DNA of 50,641 nt from Fidelibacterota bacterium (GTDB lineage: Bacteria > Fidelibacterota > Marinisomatia > Marinisomatales > Marinisomataceae). The position numbers and the translations under genes are program-made. A model generated the notes under the pieces. It was given only the letters and a program-made list of their open reading frames with translations. It made no database searches and was not told the origin of the DNA. The stretch is from the NCBI GenBank assembly GCA_016777965.1, contig JADHQL010000002.1, forward strand, positions 1 to 50,641, in the 5' to 3' direction. Of the stretch, positions 43,077-50,641 are shown in pieces; position 1 is the first letter of the stretch; the number at the start of each line of letters is the position of its first letter.

Positions 43077-43787
43077 ATGAAAAACTTAGTTATCCTGCCA
43101 ACGTACAATGAATCAAAAAATATTGTTAAAACTATCAATTTAGTTTTAGCCCAAAGAAATGATTTAAATATTCTTATCATAGATGATAATTCTCCTGATG
43201 GAACTGCGAAAATTGTTAAAGATTTAAACAATGAAAAAATTTTTATAATTGAGCGTGAATCAAAAAAAGGTTTAGGCTCAGCATATGTAGAAGGTTTTTC
43301 ATGGTCTTTAAAAAATAACTATCAAAAAATAATTCAAATGGATGCAGACTTATCTCACGATCCTAAAGAAATTAATCCTATGTTGAATTTATTGGAAAGT
43401 AATGACCTCGTTATTGGTAGTAGGTATGAAGGAGGTTTGAGAGTAATTAATTGGCCTATCAGAAGGCTGTACATCAGTTATTTCGCTAATATTTATGCAA
43501 GAATAATTACTGGTGTTCCTGTTAAAGACTTGACAGCGGGATTCAAGGGTTGGACAAAAGATGCTCTATATAGAATTAATTTTCAGGAATGTTCTTCTCA
43601 GGGATATTGTTTTCAAATTGAGACTTCTTTTAGAGCTTTTCAAAAAGGTTGTAAGTTGATTGAGCATCCTGTAGTTTTTACAGACCGAACTGTTGGAGAA
43701 TCAAAAATGAGTAAGGCTGTAATGATAGAGGCAGTATTTAAGGTTTGGATTTTTGGTTTATGGAGATTGCTTAGGTTGAAAAGATGA
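43077..43787 (+). CDS. Polyprenol monophosphomannose synthase-like GT2
   Basis: ILPTYNESKNIVKTI, IIDDNSPDGTAKI, QMDADLSHDPKEI, DLTAGFKGW. Confidence 0.9.
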   Translation: MKNLVILPTYNESKNIVKTINLVLAQRNDLNILIIDDNSPDGTAKIVKDLNNEKIFIIERESKKGLGSAYVEGFSWSLKNNYQKIIQMDADLSHDPKEINPMLNLLESNDLVIGSRYEGGLRVINWPIRRLYISYFANIYARIITGVPVKDLTAGFKGWTKDALYRINFQECSSQGYCFQIETSFRAFQKGCKLIEHPVVFTDRTVGESKMSKAVMIEAVFKVWIFGLWRLLRLKR

Positions 43788-44728
43788 AAAGACATTATTT
43801 ACCATTTGAAAAACCGTTAAAAGATTTAGATTTTGAAATTGAAAAATTGACAACATCCGAATCTGATTCAAAACAATTAAAAGATTTAATTGTTGAAAGG
43901 GAAAATTTGGAAAAAGAAATTTTTGCAGATTTATCTCCTTGGGAGACTGTCCAACTAGCCAGACATCCAAATAGACCTTATACCCTCGATTACATCAACG
44001 CTTGGTGTGAGAATTTCACAGAATTGCATGGAGACAAAGCTTTTTCAGATGATAACGCAGTTGTTGCAGGAATTGGAATCATCGACAAATTAAAGGTTGC
44101 CATTATCGGTCAACAAAAAGGAAGAAATATTAAAGATAATATTTTTAGAAATTTTGGAATGATGAAACCTGAGGGTTATAGAAAAGCATTAAGAGTTATG
44201 AAGTTAGCTGAGAAATTTAAATTACCAATAATTACATTGATTGACACCCCTGGAGCTGATCCAGGTATTGGAGCTGAAGAAAGGGGGCAAGGGTATGCTA
44301 TAGCAAATAATCTTTTTGAAATGGCTTCAATTAAAACTCAAATTTTATCAATTGTTATTGGAGAGGGAGCTAGCGGTGGCGCATTAGGCATTGGACTTTG
44401 CGACAAGATGATTATGCTTGAGAACACTTGGTTTTCTGTTATCAGTCCAGAGGGCTGTGCATCTATTTTATGGAAAGACTCTTCAAAAGCACCAGAAGCT
44501 GCTAAATCCTTAAAACTCACTCCCAAAGATTTGATGGAACACGATATTTGTAATATGATTGTTTACGAGCCTTCTGGAGGTGCACACAGACATTTTGATG
44601 CAACTGCAGACATTCTTAAGGAAACAATTTTAAGCGAAATAAAAGAATTGCAAAATAACTTGAGTAGCGATTTCTTGGAGTCTAGAGTTTCAAGATATGA
44701 TAAGCTTGGTGTTTTTAGAGAAAATTAA
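43784..44728 (+). CDS. accA: Acetyl-CoA carboxylase carboxyltransferase subunit alpha
   Basis: FEKPLKDLDFEIEKL, RHPNRPYTLDYI, NFGMMKPEGYRKALRVMKLAEKF, IGEGASGGALGIG. Confidence 0.97.
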   Translation: MKRHYLPFEKPLKDLDFEIEKLTTSESDSKQLKDLIVERENLEKEIFADLSPWETVQLARHPNRPYTLDYINAWCENFTELHGDKAFSDDNAVVAGIGIIDKLKVAIIGQQKGRNIKDNIFRNFGMMKPEGYRKALRVMKLAEKFKLPIITLIDTPGADPGIGAEERGQGYAIANNLFEMASIKTQILSIVIGEGASGGALGIGLCDKMIMLENTWFSVISPEGCASILWKDSSKAPEAAKSLKLTPKDLMEHDICNMIVYEPSGGAHRHFDATADILKETILSEIKELQNNLSSDFLESRVSRYDKLGVFREN

Positions 44729-46578
44729 TAAAAATCGTATCTGTAATCTTTAAGATCAGCATTATCTCTTAATGCTTGTAGCCAATTACCCCAAATAGCA
44801 TTTTGTCTATCAATAAGTAAGCTAAATTTTATAGCCTCTTTCTTTTCTTCAAAATCACTCATTACAACATCAGCGATATCAATTACTCTTAAAAATGCTT
44901 GACCTCTTAAAGTTGGTAAGGGACCAAGAATATCGCCTTCTTTAGCGTTAGCTAATGCACCAACTATAAAGTTACTTTTACCAATAGATTCAAAACTCCC
45001 AATTAAAGCTGAATTCGCTTCAGCCACGTATTCAAGATTTTCATTATTTTGATATATAGCTGAAAGGTTCATTTCGCCCTTATTACTATCTTTTATCGAT
45101 TCAGCTAAATTTTTTATGTGATTTTTTTTGAAATCAGATAAATATTCATTCTTCAAATCTTTTTTAACAACTTCAAAAGGTATAGTATTTTCTTTTTCAA
45201 CTTTATCAAGGAAAAATACTCCATAGAAATTATCATTCTTAATTGGATCAGAAGTTGAACCTTCAACATTTTTGAATGCAAAATTGACTGCACTTCTCCC
45301 AACTCCAAAATTATCAACAAAAATTGACTCTTTTCTGAGACCGCCAGTTACCTGAACTTCTAATCCCAAAGAATCAGCTAATGCAAAAAATCCATATTCC
45401 GTTGCTTCTAAGGCAAAGATGCTAGCAGTATCTTTAAGTTCGTTTTCAGTACCTCTTCCAGGTTGAATAGTTAAAAGAATATGAGAAGCATTAACTTGCT
45501 CATTACTGTCCACAGTTCGCTTGTCATTAACTTTTATTACATGATATCCATATTCTGTTAAAATTGGACCAACAATTGAACCTTTTTCAGCTTCAAAGGA
45601 TGCTATTTCAAACTCAGGCAATAACTGTCCTTTATTAAACCATCCAAGACTTCCACCTTTTAGATTTTGTGGATCAGCACTATTGCTTGGATCTTCTGTA
45701 AAAGTATTAGCTAATAAAGCGAAATTTTCGCCTTCGTTTAATCTGAAAATTAAATCTTCTGCTTCAAGCTTGACGCGCAATGTATCAGTCGCATTAGACA
45801 TAATTGGCCATTTGACATACTTTAAATACCTTAATTCAGGTTGATCATAATCTGAAATATTTTCATTATAAAGATTGCGTAACTCATCATCAGATGGTCT
45901 ATCTGCTAATAGTCCGTTATAAAAATCCTGATCGATTGCCTTATCGGTAACATGAAGAATTTCAACTTTATAGTTTAAAAATCTTTTTTTGTAATCTTCT
46001 AATACATCGTTTGAAGTGATAGCTGCTGCATTAGAAACATATTGTTGTAGTTTATAGCTAGGTAAATAAACATTCTGCATGAAATCTTCAATTGGTTTCC
46101 AATCAATTTGATTAGGGTTTAAGACAGCATCTAAATATTTTTCCAAATCAAATCTTCCAAATGATTGGAAGGCATCTGAGTTTTTTAGAAACGGAGGAGG
46201 ATTATTTTTCATTTGAAATAAAACTTCTTCATCTCCAACCACAATTTTATTTTTTTTAATTTGCTCTTGTACTATTAAATCAGCAATTAATCGCTCCCAT
46301 ACAACAGCTCTGATATATTCTCTTTCCTCATCGGAGATTAAACGACCAGATTGTTGATCTAATCTATTAATTTCATTAGAAACTAATTGATTAAAATCTT
46401 CAAATAATATTGGTTTCCCATTTAATGAACCAACTTCATTACCTTGACGACCACCAAAAATATCAGTAATGCTGGCACCACCAACTAGACCACCAATTGC
46501 CATACTTGTAACAAAGAGAACCAAGATAGTCCACATTACTACTTGCATTCTACTTCTCATGTTTGTTATTAAGCCCAT
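44725..46578 (-). CDS. SurA_N/PPIC-domain peptidylprolyl isomerase (PpiD-like)
   Basis: N-terminal TM; SLNGKPILFEDFNQLVSNEI; PPIC domain with GGSLGWFNKGQLLPEFEIASFEAEKGSIVGPILTEYGYHVIKVNDKR. Confidence 0.9.
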   Translation of the reverse strand: MGLITNMRSRMQVVMWTILVLFVTSMAIGGLVGGASITDIFGGRQGNEVGSLNGKPILFEDFNQLVSNEINRLDQQSGRLISDEEREYIRAVVWERLIADLIVQEQIKKNKIVVGDEEVLFQMKNNPPPFLKNSDAFQSFGRFDLEKYLDAVLNPNQIDWKPIEDFMQNVYLPSYKLQQYVSNAAAITSNDVLEDYKKRFLNYKVEILHVTDKAIDQDFYNGLLADRPSDDELRNLYNENISDYDQPELRYLKYVKWPIMSNATDTLRVKLEAEDLIFRLNEGENFALLANTFTEDPSNSADPQNLKGGSLGWFNKGQLLPEFEIASFEAEKGSIVGPILTEYGYHVIKVNDKRTVDSNEQVNASHILLTIQPGRGTENELKDTASIFALEATEYGFFALADSLGLEVQVTGGLRKESIFVDNFGVGRSAVNFAFKNVEGSTSDPIKNDNFYGVFFLDKVEKENTIPFEVVKKDLKNEYLSDFKKNHIKNLAESIKDSNKGEMNLSAIYQNNENLEYVAEANSALIGSFESIGKSNFIVGALANAKEGDILGPLPTLRGQAFLRVIDIADVVMSDFEEKKEAIKFSLLIDRQNAIWGNWLQALRDNADLKDYRYDFY

Positions 46579-46663: not shown

Positions 46664-48901
46664 ATGAGATATAAATACTTAACTATTTCTTTAATTTTTA
46701 GTGCTCTTTTTGCTCAAAGTAAAATATCTTTGGATAGTGTTCTTGATGGCACATTTAGGACCGAATCAATAGGAAGATATGATTGGAAGAATAGTTCTGA
46801 TTCATATTATTTTTCGGAAAGAAGTGATGAAGGGTTAGAATTTTATGAATATAATCTTGCTTCGAATGATACTTTAAAAGCTTTTACAGTCAACAAAAAT
46901 ATTATTAGTAATTTTTCGTATTCATTTAATCCAGATCAAACAAAGTTGCTTTTGAAAAAGAATTCAGTAAAACTATGGAGACATTCTTCTTATGGTTCAT
47001 ATTATGTTTACGATATATCATCAGAATCTTTAACCCCTGTCACTACTGATCCTGATAGTTTAAGAAATGTAAAATTTTCTCCAGATTCCAAAAAGCTAGC
47101 ATTCGTTCGAAATGATAACAATCTATACCTTTTTGATTTAACTAATGAGCTTGAAGAACAACTAACTTTTGATGGGAGCGAAGATATTCTGAACGGACAT
47201 TTTGGATGGGTTTATGAAGAAGAGTTTGGTACTTATGATTCATATAAGTGGAGTCCTAATAGTGAATACATTGCGTTTATAAGAGAGGACCAGACATATG
47301 TTAAAGAGTATGCCTTGGTTGATTATGAAGCACAATATCCAGTTGTAAAGTACATCAGGTATCCGAAAACTGGAGAAGATAATCCTATTGTTTCGATTAG
47401 TATATTAGATTTAAAAAATAAAGAATATAGATCAGTCAACTTACCAAATACTGCATATTATATTCCTGATATTATTTGGCAAACAAATTCATCTAATCTT
47501 TATTTTGCTACTTTAAATAGGAAGCAAAATGATTGGAATTTATACAAATATGATTTCGATACTAATGGGGCAGAATTAATTCTAAATGATTCAAATGATT
47601 CTTGGATTGATAGAGATCTGTTTATAATTCCTGGTGAAATTGGAACATGGACTACTAAAGGCGGTTTTAGCTTTGCAATCATGGAGGACGGAGAAATAAT
47701 ATGGCTATCAGAGCAAGATGGGTTTAATCATATTTACAGAAATAGGCCCGATGGTGGACCAATAAATCAAGTTACAAGAGGAGATTGGGAGGTAAATAAC
47801 ATAAGTGCTATTGATTATAAGAATGAAATAATTTATTTCTCAGCTAAGAAAGAAACAGAAACAGAAAATCATCTTTATTCAGTTAGATTTAATGGCTCAA
47901 GACTCAAAAGGCTTACAAAAGAAAAAGGCTCTCATTCATCATCTTTTTCACCAACATTAAATTATTTCATTAATTCATATTCAAGTTTTACAGTTCCTCC
48001 AAAAACACTCATTAGAGAAGATAATGGAAAGATTGTTAGAATTCTCAGAGAAACAGATAGGTCTAAATTTGACGCTTATAATCTAACCTATCCTCAACTA
48101 ATTAATATTTTTACGGATGACGGCACTAGGCTTAATGCCTTAATTACATATCCTCATAATTTTGATCCAATGAAACAGTATCCTGTTATTCTTTATAATT
48201 ATGGTGGTCCTGGTTCTCAATTAGTTATAAACAGATGGGGTGCAGGAAGTCACACTTTGCATCAATATTTTGCTAGTAGAGATTTTATCATTTTTTCATT
48301 TGATAATAGAGGTACTGGCGGAAGAGGAAAAGCATTCAAAGATTTAGCTTATGGTGATTATGGTAAATATCTTGTTAAGGATCATATTGAAGCAGCAAAA
48401 TATTTACAAGGTCTAACTTATGTTGACGGAGATAACATAGGAATATGGGGCTGGAGTGGCGGCGGTTATTTGACTAACATGTGTATGACTTTAGCTAGCG
48501 ATTATTTTAAAGCTGGTATATCTATTGCTCCAAATGTTGAGCCGTTACTGTATGATACTATTTGGACAGAAAGATATATGGGGTTAGTTGAAGAAAATCC
48601 AGAAGGATATAAAAATGCCTCAGTACTTACTCATGTAGATAAAGCCAAAGGACATTTACTCCAAATACATGGAAATGCAGATGATAACGTTCATCATCAG
48701 CATTCGATAAAGCTTGCTAAAGCATATGCAGAACATGGAAAAGATATGGAGATGTTTATTTATTCAAATGCTAACCACGGAATGTCTAATAACAATTTTT
48801 TAAGTGAAGAATATCCAGCTGATGGATGGAAAAATAGATACCATCTTTATAAAAAGATGGCTGATTTTTTCATGGAACATTTAGTTTCAGATACTTTCTA
48901 A
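46664..48901 (+). CDS. S9 family peptidase, dipeptidyl peptidase IV-like
   Basis: Signal peptide; DPP-IV N-terminal beta-propeller; GIWGWSGGGYLTNMCM, LLQIHGNADDNVHHQHS, catalytic His in NANHGMS. Confidence 0.92.
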   Translation: MRYKYLTISLIFSALFAQSKISLDSVLDGTFRTESIGRYDWKNSSDSYYFSERSDEGLEFYEYNLASNDTLKAFTVNKNIISNFSYSFNPDQTKLLLKKNSVKLWRHSSYGSYYVYDISSESLTPVTTDPDSLRNVKFSPDSKKLAFVRNDNNLYLFDLTNELEEQLTFDGSEDILNGHFGWVYEEEFGTYDSYKWSPNSEYIAFIREDQTYVKEYALVDYEAQYPVVKYIRYPKTGEDNPIVSISILDLKNKEYRSVNLPNTAYYIPDIIWQTNSSNLYFATLNRKQNDWNLYKYDFDTNGAELILNDSNDSWIDRDLFIIPGEIGTWTTKGGFSFAIMEDGEIIWLSEQDGFNHIYRNRPDGGPINQVTRGDWEVNNISAIDYKNEIIYFSAKKETETENHLYSVRFNGSRLKRLTKEKGSHSSSFSPTLNYFINSYSSFTVPPKTLIREDNGKIVRILRETDRSKFDAYNLTYPQLINIFTDDGTRLNALITYPHNFDPMKQYPVILYNYGGPGSQLVINRWGAGSHTLHQYFASRDFIIFSFDNRGTGGRGKAFKDLAYGDYGKYLVKDHIEAAKYLQGLTYVDGDNIGIWGWSGGGYLTNMCMTLASDYFKAGISIAPNVEPLLYDTIWTERYMGLVEENPEGYKNASVLTHVDKAKGHLLQIHGNADDNVHHQHSIKLAKAYAEHGKDMEMFIYSNANHGMSNNNFLSEEYPADGWKNRYHLYKKMADFFMEHLVSDTF

Positions 48902-50490
48902 TCTTTTTGTTGCATTGCAATTTTTTTAAATTCATGCATTGCAGTTTCAGAGTTTGACATTATCGCTATAAGTTGGTTTGCCCAGGGTAGATTTTCATTC
49001 TCTACTAAAATTTTTAATCTATCAATGCTGTTAACAAACATCCTTGGTAAATAAGTTGGAGTTGGTGTTCCTCCAGTACCCACACCTTTACTTTGATTTC
49101 TGTAAGGATCTGGTGCTTTTAAAATATAGTTTACAACCATATGATAATGATCAATTCTATGTTTAATTATCCATCGAATAGTATTAGCTAATAATTTTTT
49201 ATAATGATTTATTGATTCAACTTTTGAAAGAAAATTTGATTCGATTATTGTTTTTCTAATTTTAACAATTAATGCATGATGTGCTGGAGGTCTGTAACCA
49301 ACTCTAAATGATTTTAACAATCTTGATAAAGAATCCTGTTCAAAATTTTTTGGAAAGTCTTCATTTTCAACATGACCTTTTGTTAGAATGCTGTTTATTA
49401 TAATTTCATCTGTTTTTTTATCAAGATTATACGCCCCTGTATGATTACCAATACCTGTTATTTCATCTGCTATTGGGTAGTATGAACTATTAGCTCCAGT
49501 TTGACCATGGAGATTTGATATGTACAATCCTTTAGAATTATATTCTTTATCAAAAGTATCCCCACAATTTTCAAAAAATAATCCTTTAGTAGGATAGATT
49601 TTACCTTGATTTCCATATAATCCTTGAATGAAGATTCTAACTTCTTTGTTATATAGTGAAGGTTCAGATACTTTCCACATTGTATTAAATAATTGATTTG
49701 AATGCAAAGTAGCTAATTCAATCTTTTCAAGATTTTCTTTAATATCATCTTTTTTTACAGCTTGGAGTAAATTTTCAATCATCATTTTTGATGTTCGTTC
49801 CATCGCAAGATGAGTCATTCTAAATCCTTGTTCATTTCCATCAAAGTCATGAAAAGCCACTAAAGGCTTAATTGATCTTATGTAATCAATATTTTTACTT
49901 AAATCATCATAATTATCTAGCTCTTGATCTGGAAGTGCCCCAGAGCGTAATACATAATCTGCAGCATACTCAAATTCAGGTTGTTGGCCTGTAATTCTTG
50001 AAGATAATAAAAGCAATCCTGATAGTGGCCATGGAATGAATGCATTTGCTTTTTTTTGACTATTAAATATTGGTTCGATTTTAATTCCATTAGCAAGCCA
50101 TGAAGACCAACATCTCACATTTGCAATTAGTTCAGCTGATTCTTTTGTTGGGTTAGCAATGTAATTTTGTACATCTAAAATAAATTTATCCATTAATCCA
50201 TCATCAATTAATTTTACTTCATCAAAAAGTGCATTCTGTCCAATTAAACCTGTTTTTGAATTACTGTGCACGGTCATTTCAAGTGCAATATCTGATAAAA
50301 TGTTATAAGGAGGAGGAAGTTTTTTAAGGGTTGAATATGGCAATGTTGAATTAGGGTGCCAAATTAATTCTGATGTTTGTTGAATTAGACTTGCATCAAA
50401 CTCTAACCCAAATAAATGTTCATTAAATTGAATTCCATTCCCAAGGTACGGAAAGTAATCTTCTGTTGAAATTTGAATATTAGACTTCAT
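48898..50490 (-). CDS. Indoleamine/tryptophan 2,3-dioxygenase superfamily-like heme protein
   Basis: FRVGYRPPAHHALI, HRIDHYHMVVNYIL, GTGGTPTPTYL, VRIFIQGLYGN and HGQTGANSSYYPIADEITGI align in order with IDO1 segments recalled from memory. Confidence 0.7.
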   Translation of the reverse strand: MKSNIQISTEDYFPYLGNGIQFNEHLFGLEFDASLIQQTSELIWHPNSTLPYSTLKKLPPPYNILSDIALEMTVHSNSKTGLIGQNALFDEVKLIDDGLMDKFILDVQNYIANPTKESAELIANVRCWSSWLANGIKIEPIFNSQKKANAFIPWPLSGLLLLSSRITGQQPEFEYAADYVLRSGALPDQELDNYDDLSKNIDYIRSIKPLVAFHDFDGNEQGFRMTHLAMERTSKMMIENLLQAVKKDDIKENLEKIELATLHSNQLFNTMWKVSEPSLYNKEVRIFIQGLYGNQGKIYPTKGLFFENCGDTFDKEYNSKGLYISNLHGQTGANSSYYPIADEITGIGNHTGAYNLDKKTDEIIINSILTKGHVENEDFPKNFEQDSLSRLLKSFRVGYRPPAHHALIVKIRKTIIESNFLSKVESINHYKKLLANTIRWIIKHRIDHYHMVVNYILKAPDPYRNQSKGVGTGGTPTPTYLPRMFVNSIDRLKILVENENLPWANQLIAIMSNSETAMHEFKKIAMQQKD

Positions 50491-50641
50491 TGTTTCTAAC
50501 TAAATCATTAATGAACTTGAAAACAGATTCGTCGTTCCAAAAGGCACTTCCAATATCTTTTACAACTACTTCTCCATTTGAGTTAATGATAAATGTTGTC
50601 GGAATACCTGAAGTTGCAAAAAATTCGTCATCTGTTAAAAC
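50480..50641 (-). CDS. TlpA/ResA-like thioredoxin-fold protein, C-terminal fragment (cut by window edge)
   Basis: Read directly: VLTDDEFFATSGIPTTFIINSNGEVVVKDIGSAFWNDESVFKFINDLVRNNEV*; cis-Pro GIPTTFIIN motif. Confidence 0.7.
   Translation of the reverse strand, partial: VLTDDEFFATSGIPTTFIINSNGEVVVKDIGSAFWNDESVFKFINDLVRNNEV

Follow-up and report, generated by a model that had tools for sequence, protein, structure and literature searches.

Gene organization at the locus

We analysed a window of 50,641 nucleotides, near one end of which a minus-strand open reading frame encodes a 530-aa protein with the hallmarks of the IDO family. The first-pass annotation had singled out this reading frame as a candidate heme dioxygenase gene of the IDO/TDO superfamily, and its boundaries, strand and ATG start stand as given there. 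The genes and one gene segment of the locus are as follows:

43784-44728, plus strand: accA, near the IDO-like gene
44725-46578, minus strand: gene for a SurA/PpiD-like PPIase, near the IDO-like gene
46664-48901, plus strand: gene for DPP4, convergent with the IDO-like gene
48898-50490, minus strand: gene for the IDO-family heme oxygenase-like protein, 530 aa plus stop codon, ATG start (open reading frame call, Pfam, profile, model and Foldseek)
50356-50490, minus strand: N-terminal extension of that protein, residues 1-45, absent from ordinary IDOs, conserved in the subfamily and modelled with strands
50480-50641, minus strand: 3' end of the upstream gene for a ResA/TlpA-like thiol-disulfide oxidoreductase (210 aa, remainder beyond the window; L040:10484-11113)

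No other IDO gene was found in the window's own assembly (400 kb, about 57% complete). The neighbours are the DPP4, PPIase, accA and ResA/TlpA genes, with no biosynthetic or natural-product cluster around the IDO-like gene. In several relatives (L002, L003, L005-L007, L009 and L050) the DPP4 and PPIase genes are separated by an inserted gene whose 575-aa product has no Pfam match (L003:9873-11597); this insert is absent from the window.

The ResA/TlpA-like gene overlaps the start of the IDO-like gene by 11 bases, stop codon counted. A ResA/TlpA-like protein of 204-210 aa is encoded directly upstream and on the same strand in all 12 Neomarinimicrobiota loci having upstream DNA, and in each of them the two genes overlap or lie a few bases apart, a tight pairing that suggests co-expression. 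In the window's copy of the partner, a hydrophobic N-terminal stretch is accompanied by a WCNPC redox motif, and among NCBIfam models ResA scores best, though below cut-off. A functional link between the two is a guess, given that the oxidoreductase seems to be exported or anchored in the membrane, while inspection by eye shows no obvious signal peptide on the IDO-like protein.

Membership in the IDO family

The first-pass annotation had proposed an HMM search against the IDO, TDO and PrnB families and a superposition of a predicted structure on IDO1 as checks, and we ran both. A Pfam scan of the 530-aa protein matched IDO (PF01231) with a score of 44.6 bits, where the cut-off is 26 (E=1.1e-11); TDO (PF03301) was not listed at E<=1, and PrnB was likewise unlisted. 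A sub-cut-off Pfam match to monomeric isocitrate dehydrogenase (11 bits, E 0.12) was set aside as noise, and no NCBIfam family scored above cut-off. A single-sequence phmmer search against the PDB came back empty, so a profile was needed: with a 16-member family profile, IDO1 and IDO2 were the only PDB matches at E<0.01 (best 8e-6). The top match was the human IDO1 S167H mutant 6CXU, in whose alignment residue 167 is matched by H227 and the His346 motif by R-x-x-H448. Profile-profile comparison (hhalign) of the family with two prokaryotic IDO groups gave probabilities of 99.1% and 98.0%, with E-values of 1.6e-18 (the 99% comparison) and 1.8e-13.

The predicted structure points the same way. 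An AlphaFold2 model made from a 31-row alignment, which contained IDO cousins (nine from two IDO groups) as well as extra family members, reached a pLDDT of 86.3 and a pTM of 0.90, and Foldseek matched it to IDO1 with a TM of 0.81 over the length of IDO1 as target (E=3.4e-11). In a first model built from family-only rows the pLDDT was 59.5, and IDO1 already ranked top. In the 31-row model H448 lies within helix 428-457, matching the long C-terminal helix of the proximal His. All Foldseek matches listed for it were IDO1 or IDO2, with no TDO and no PrnB among them. Superfamily membership is thus borne out by HMM, profile and structure searches, and we regard the 530-aa protein, on sequence and model evidence, as a divergent IDO-family member, a subfamily-level variant of a known family.

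The annotation had also offered a PrnB-like enzyme with another substrate. As a statement of membership this label does not hold, given that Pfam returned IDO and a sub-cut-off isocitrate dehydrogenase, that the Foldseek matches listed were all IDO1 or IDO2, and that PrnB did not appear among the matches of the 16-member profile; a substrate other than tryptophan, as suggested there, is possible. Aromatic-oxygenase chemistry of the kind found in PrnB/MarE-type superfamily members is a separate question. Members with similar pockets do act in this way (PMC11904535, PMC11791213), and the N-terminal, inserted and C-terminal segments that set the protein apart, described below, suggest a different substrate environment. 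The absence of a PrnB or TDO match in Pfam and of a biosynthetic cluster near the gene speaks against it, and we think such chemistry improbable.

Active site and distal histidine

The residues that define the predicted heme pocket map to the following codons:

49069-49080, minus strand: G471-G474, start of the GTGG JK-loop motif, including Thr472 (IDO1 Thr379); T472-G473-G474 invariant in 31 sequences
49147-49149, minus strand: His448, predicted proximal heme ligand (IDO1 His346); invariant in 31 sequences, HMMER alignment to IDO1
49636-49638, minus strand: Arg285 (IDO1 Arg231, substrate carboxylate); invariant in 31 sequences
49810-49812, minus strand: His227, distal-pocket His (IDO1 Ser167 position); aligned to His167 of 6CXU, family-invariant
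49822-49824, minus strand: Phe223 (IDO1 Phe163); invariant in 31 sequences

R445 joins F223, R285, H448 and T472-G473-G474 in being invariant across the 31 diverse sequences. The annotation had assigned H448, R285, F223 and H227 to H346, R231, F163 and S167 by a hand alignment to IDO1; all four equivalences proved right in the HMM, profile and structure searches, every motif it listed is found within the translation, and the position it gave for the His448 codon agrees by arithmetic. To this set we add T472 as the equivalent of T379. Residues with a bearing on tryptophan binding in human IDO1 and TDO are Ser167/His76, Arg231/Arg144 and Thr379/Thr342, respectively (PMC5758539), and the distal His of MarE forms a bond to the nitrogen of the indole (PMC11904535). 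Invariance of the catalytic residues, read with these known roles, indicates that the protein retains what it needs to hold an aromatic substrate resembling an amino acid; heme binding and catalysis are inferred.

The annotation had read His227 as a mixed signature, an IDO scaffold carrying a distal residue of the TDO type. This description is literally true but not distinctive, as 8 of 12 comparison prokaryotic IDOs have His at this position. All five 475-aa relatives (Neomarinimicrobiota, Bacteroidota) carry it, as do all three plasmid IDOs examined (Methylocystis, Haladaptatus, Sphingobium); ordinary Neomarinimicrobiota IDOs have Thr. The His-type gene of Haladaptatus is annotated as IDO and adjoins kynU and an alpha/beta hydrolase gene. 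A distal His is therefore common in prokaryotic and microbial IDO sequences, and alone it marks neither a hybrid nor a new function.

The 530-aa subfamily and its distribution

In a phylogenetic tree the 530-aa sequences group as a clade of their own, fully supported and on a long branch. Alignment shows three additions: the conserved 45-residue N-terminal extension, for which the model predicts strands at residues 2-7, 18-26 and 29-32, an insertion at about residues 350-386, and a C-terminal tail. Sampling covered 245 Neomarinimicrobiota and 396 Bacteroidota genomes. Within Neomarinimicrobiota (SAR406), the 530-aa form occurs in 22 of the 24 genomes of one streamlined ocean genus, the genus of the window (G000 and G036-G058), and the two genomes without it are 72% complete. 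Pairwise dN/dS of 0.05-0.17 indicates that the protein is under functional constraint (purifying selection). A copy assigned to another Neomarinimicrobiota family (G124, loci L023/L047) was discounted as a probable binning error, its gene order being that of the genus throughout; the 88 kb contig concerned (G124:C76:64500-84000, L047) is probably a contaminant.

Among the Bacteroidota the 530-aa form was found in one genome, a Flavobacteriaceae MAG (AqS4), with 75% identity to the window protein. This copy lies between sdhA and sdhB with hemH (ferrochelatase) adjacent. Mis-binning was first suspected here too, but hemH and sdhC-sdhA flank the gene on one side and sdhB on the other, and the gene order differs from that of the genus, so that horizontal transfer is the likelier account and the flavobacterium probably gained its copy in this way. 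The sdhC-sdhA-...-sdhB operon (L008:2809-8765) also holds a glyoxalase-like gene. No relative of the 530-aa protein turned up in tblastn searches of plasmid and phage collections or among viral contigs.

Metabolic setting and possible functions

The annotation saw no other kynurenine-pathway gene in the window, a statement that we can extend to the genus. Kynureninase (PF22580; the same search was positive in four control genomes), the KynB-type formamidase/cyclase (PF04199, the one formamidase family covered) and TDO (PF03301) were each found in none of the 24 genus genomes, eight of which are of high quality. Any product would probably lie off the classical kynurenine route, since these three enzymes were not found. 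A trpB match above cut-off is present in 6 of the 24 genomes. In four IDO-like-gene-bearing genomes that are nearly complete (G039, G040, G045 and G055) the TrpB model gave only matches of about 20 bits, so these four probably cannot make tryptophan. Loss of tryptophan without recovery would be odd in such genomes, and the genus setting thus argues weakly for another substrate or purpose. Our literature search turned up no paper dealing with kynurenine metabolism or with heme auxotrophy in Marinimicrobia. Elsewhere in Neomarinimicrobiota, an ordinary IDO gene of another family adjoins a gene for an iron-sulfur/dehalogenase-like protein (L011/L052), and another (L010/L053) adjoins a gene for an aminotransferase-fold enzyme preceded by an apparent threonine dehydrogenase gene; neither locus has recognisable kynurenine genes.

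These data bear directly on the simplest alternative, that the protein is an ordinary tryptophan 2,3-dioxygenase that makes N-formylkynurenine for a kynurenine pathway whose downstream enzymes belong to unrecognised families. Every residue by which TDO and IDO hold tryptophan is present, and a TDO-like distal His is also found in the haloarchaeal IDO encoded beside kynU and an alpha/beta hydrolase. Nevertheless, we judge this unlikely, in view of 24 genomes, eight of them of high quality, without kynureninase, KynB-type formamidase or TDO, and of four nearly complete gene-bearing genomes that are probably unable to make tryptophan.

Heme supply was considered as well. COX1 (heme-copper oxidase subunit I) occurs in 21 of the 24 genus genomes, which marks these organisms as aerobic heme users, yet ferrochelatase was found in only 4 of the 24 and in none of the best eight, so heme may come from outside; it may be imported or scarce, or the terminal step may be an unrecognised one. 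Ferrochelatase missing from most of the genus would also suit a non-catalytic heme protein on an IDO fold (a carrier or sensor of O2, NO or heme), comparable to the molluscan IDO-like myoglobin that shows such a fold to be possible (PMC1821046). The heme- and respiration-flavoured contexts, namely the ResA/TlpA-like partner and the flavobacterial sdhCAB operon beside ferrochelatase, fit this idea. It is nonetheless the least probable account that we considered, and we give it little credence, because Arg285, Thr472 and the GTGG loop are invariant and are needed for substrate rather than for heme.

The explanation that we favour, with moderate confidence and from sequence and model together, is that the protein is a heme oxygenase with a His ligand whose substrate is tryptophan or an amino acid like it, and that it works apart from the classical kynurenine pathway. 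Heme would be bound through His448, and a tryptophan-like amino acid would be held by Arg285 at its carboxylate and by Thr472 of the mobile GTGG loop at its ammonium group, with His227 contacting the indole N-H of the substrate as in TDO. The ferrous heme-O2 would then insert one or two oxygen atoms, and the cell may excrete the product, detoxify it or make it for some other end; alternatively, a different aromatic amino acid or a derivative may be the real substrate. Points against this explanation are the identity of only 20-25% to other prokaryotic IDO proteins, the IDO cousins in the alignment behind the model of pLDDT 86.3, the finding of ferrochelatase in only 4 of the 24 genomes, and the very low tryptophan turnover of some members of other IDO branches (PMC4217691). 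A more specific version, in which the protein is a distinct core heme aromatic oxygenase of the SAR406 genus, with chemistry other than on tryptophan (or other than to N-formylkynurenine) and dependent on the ResA/TlpA-like partner, is one that we put forward tentatively.

Comparison with known systems

IDO genes of marine bacteria have been on record since the Global Ocean Sampling survey of 2007 (PMC1821046). Two of the three IDO branches include members with very low tryptophan turnover (PMC4217691), which puts the real job of many prokaryotic IDOs in question. With its near-universal retention, its fixed partner gene and the rest of the pathway not found, the genus offers a clean system for probing non-kynurenine IDO function.

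With the IDO family (PF01231; human IDO1/IDO2 and prokaryotic members) the 530-aa protein shares a common fold over the whole length of IDO1, the proximal His, and equivalents of Arg231, Phe163 and the Thr379/GTGG loop. It differs in its greater length, in having His for human Ser167, in its extra N-terminal, internal and C-terminal segments, and in lacking kynurenine neighbours. The distal His (His76 in human TDO, PMC5758539), the Arg and the GTGG loop recall TDO, whereas there is no PF03301 match and no TDO among the Foldseek matches listed. PrnB, MarE and SfmD are likewise His-ligated heme aromatic oxygenases of the superfamily (PMC11904535, PMC11791213), but the 530-aa protein has no PrnB sequence match and no natural-product cluster nearby.

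A further comparison is with the 475-aa His-type IDO-like proteins of one Neomarinimicrobiota and four Bacteroidota genomes (L016, L055, L057-L059). Both forms have the distal His, the GQTGA, MWK.S, YRP and TGGTP motifs, the C-terminal tail and an extra GLIG/GLLA segment, but the 475-aa proteins are only 23-25% identical to the 530-aa form, have neither the N-terminal extension of 45 aa nor the insertion at 350-386, and form a separate clade with full support. What is distinctive here, as far as sequence comparison tells, is the 530-aa subfamily and not the distal His.
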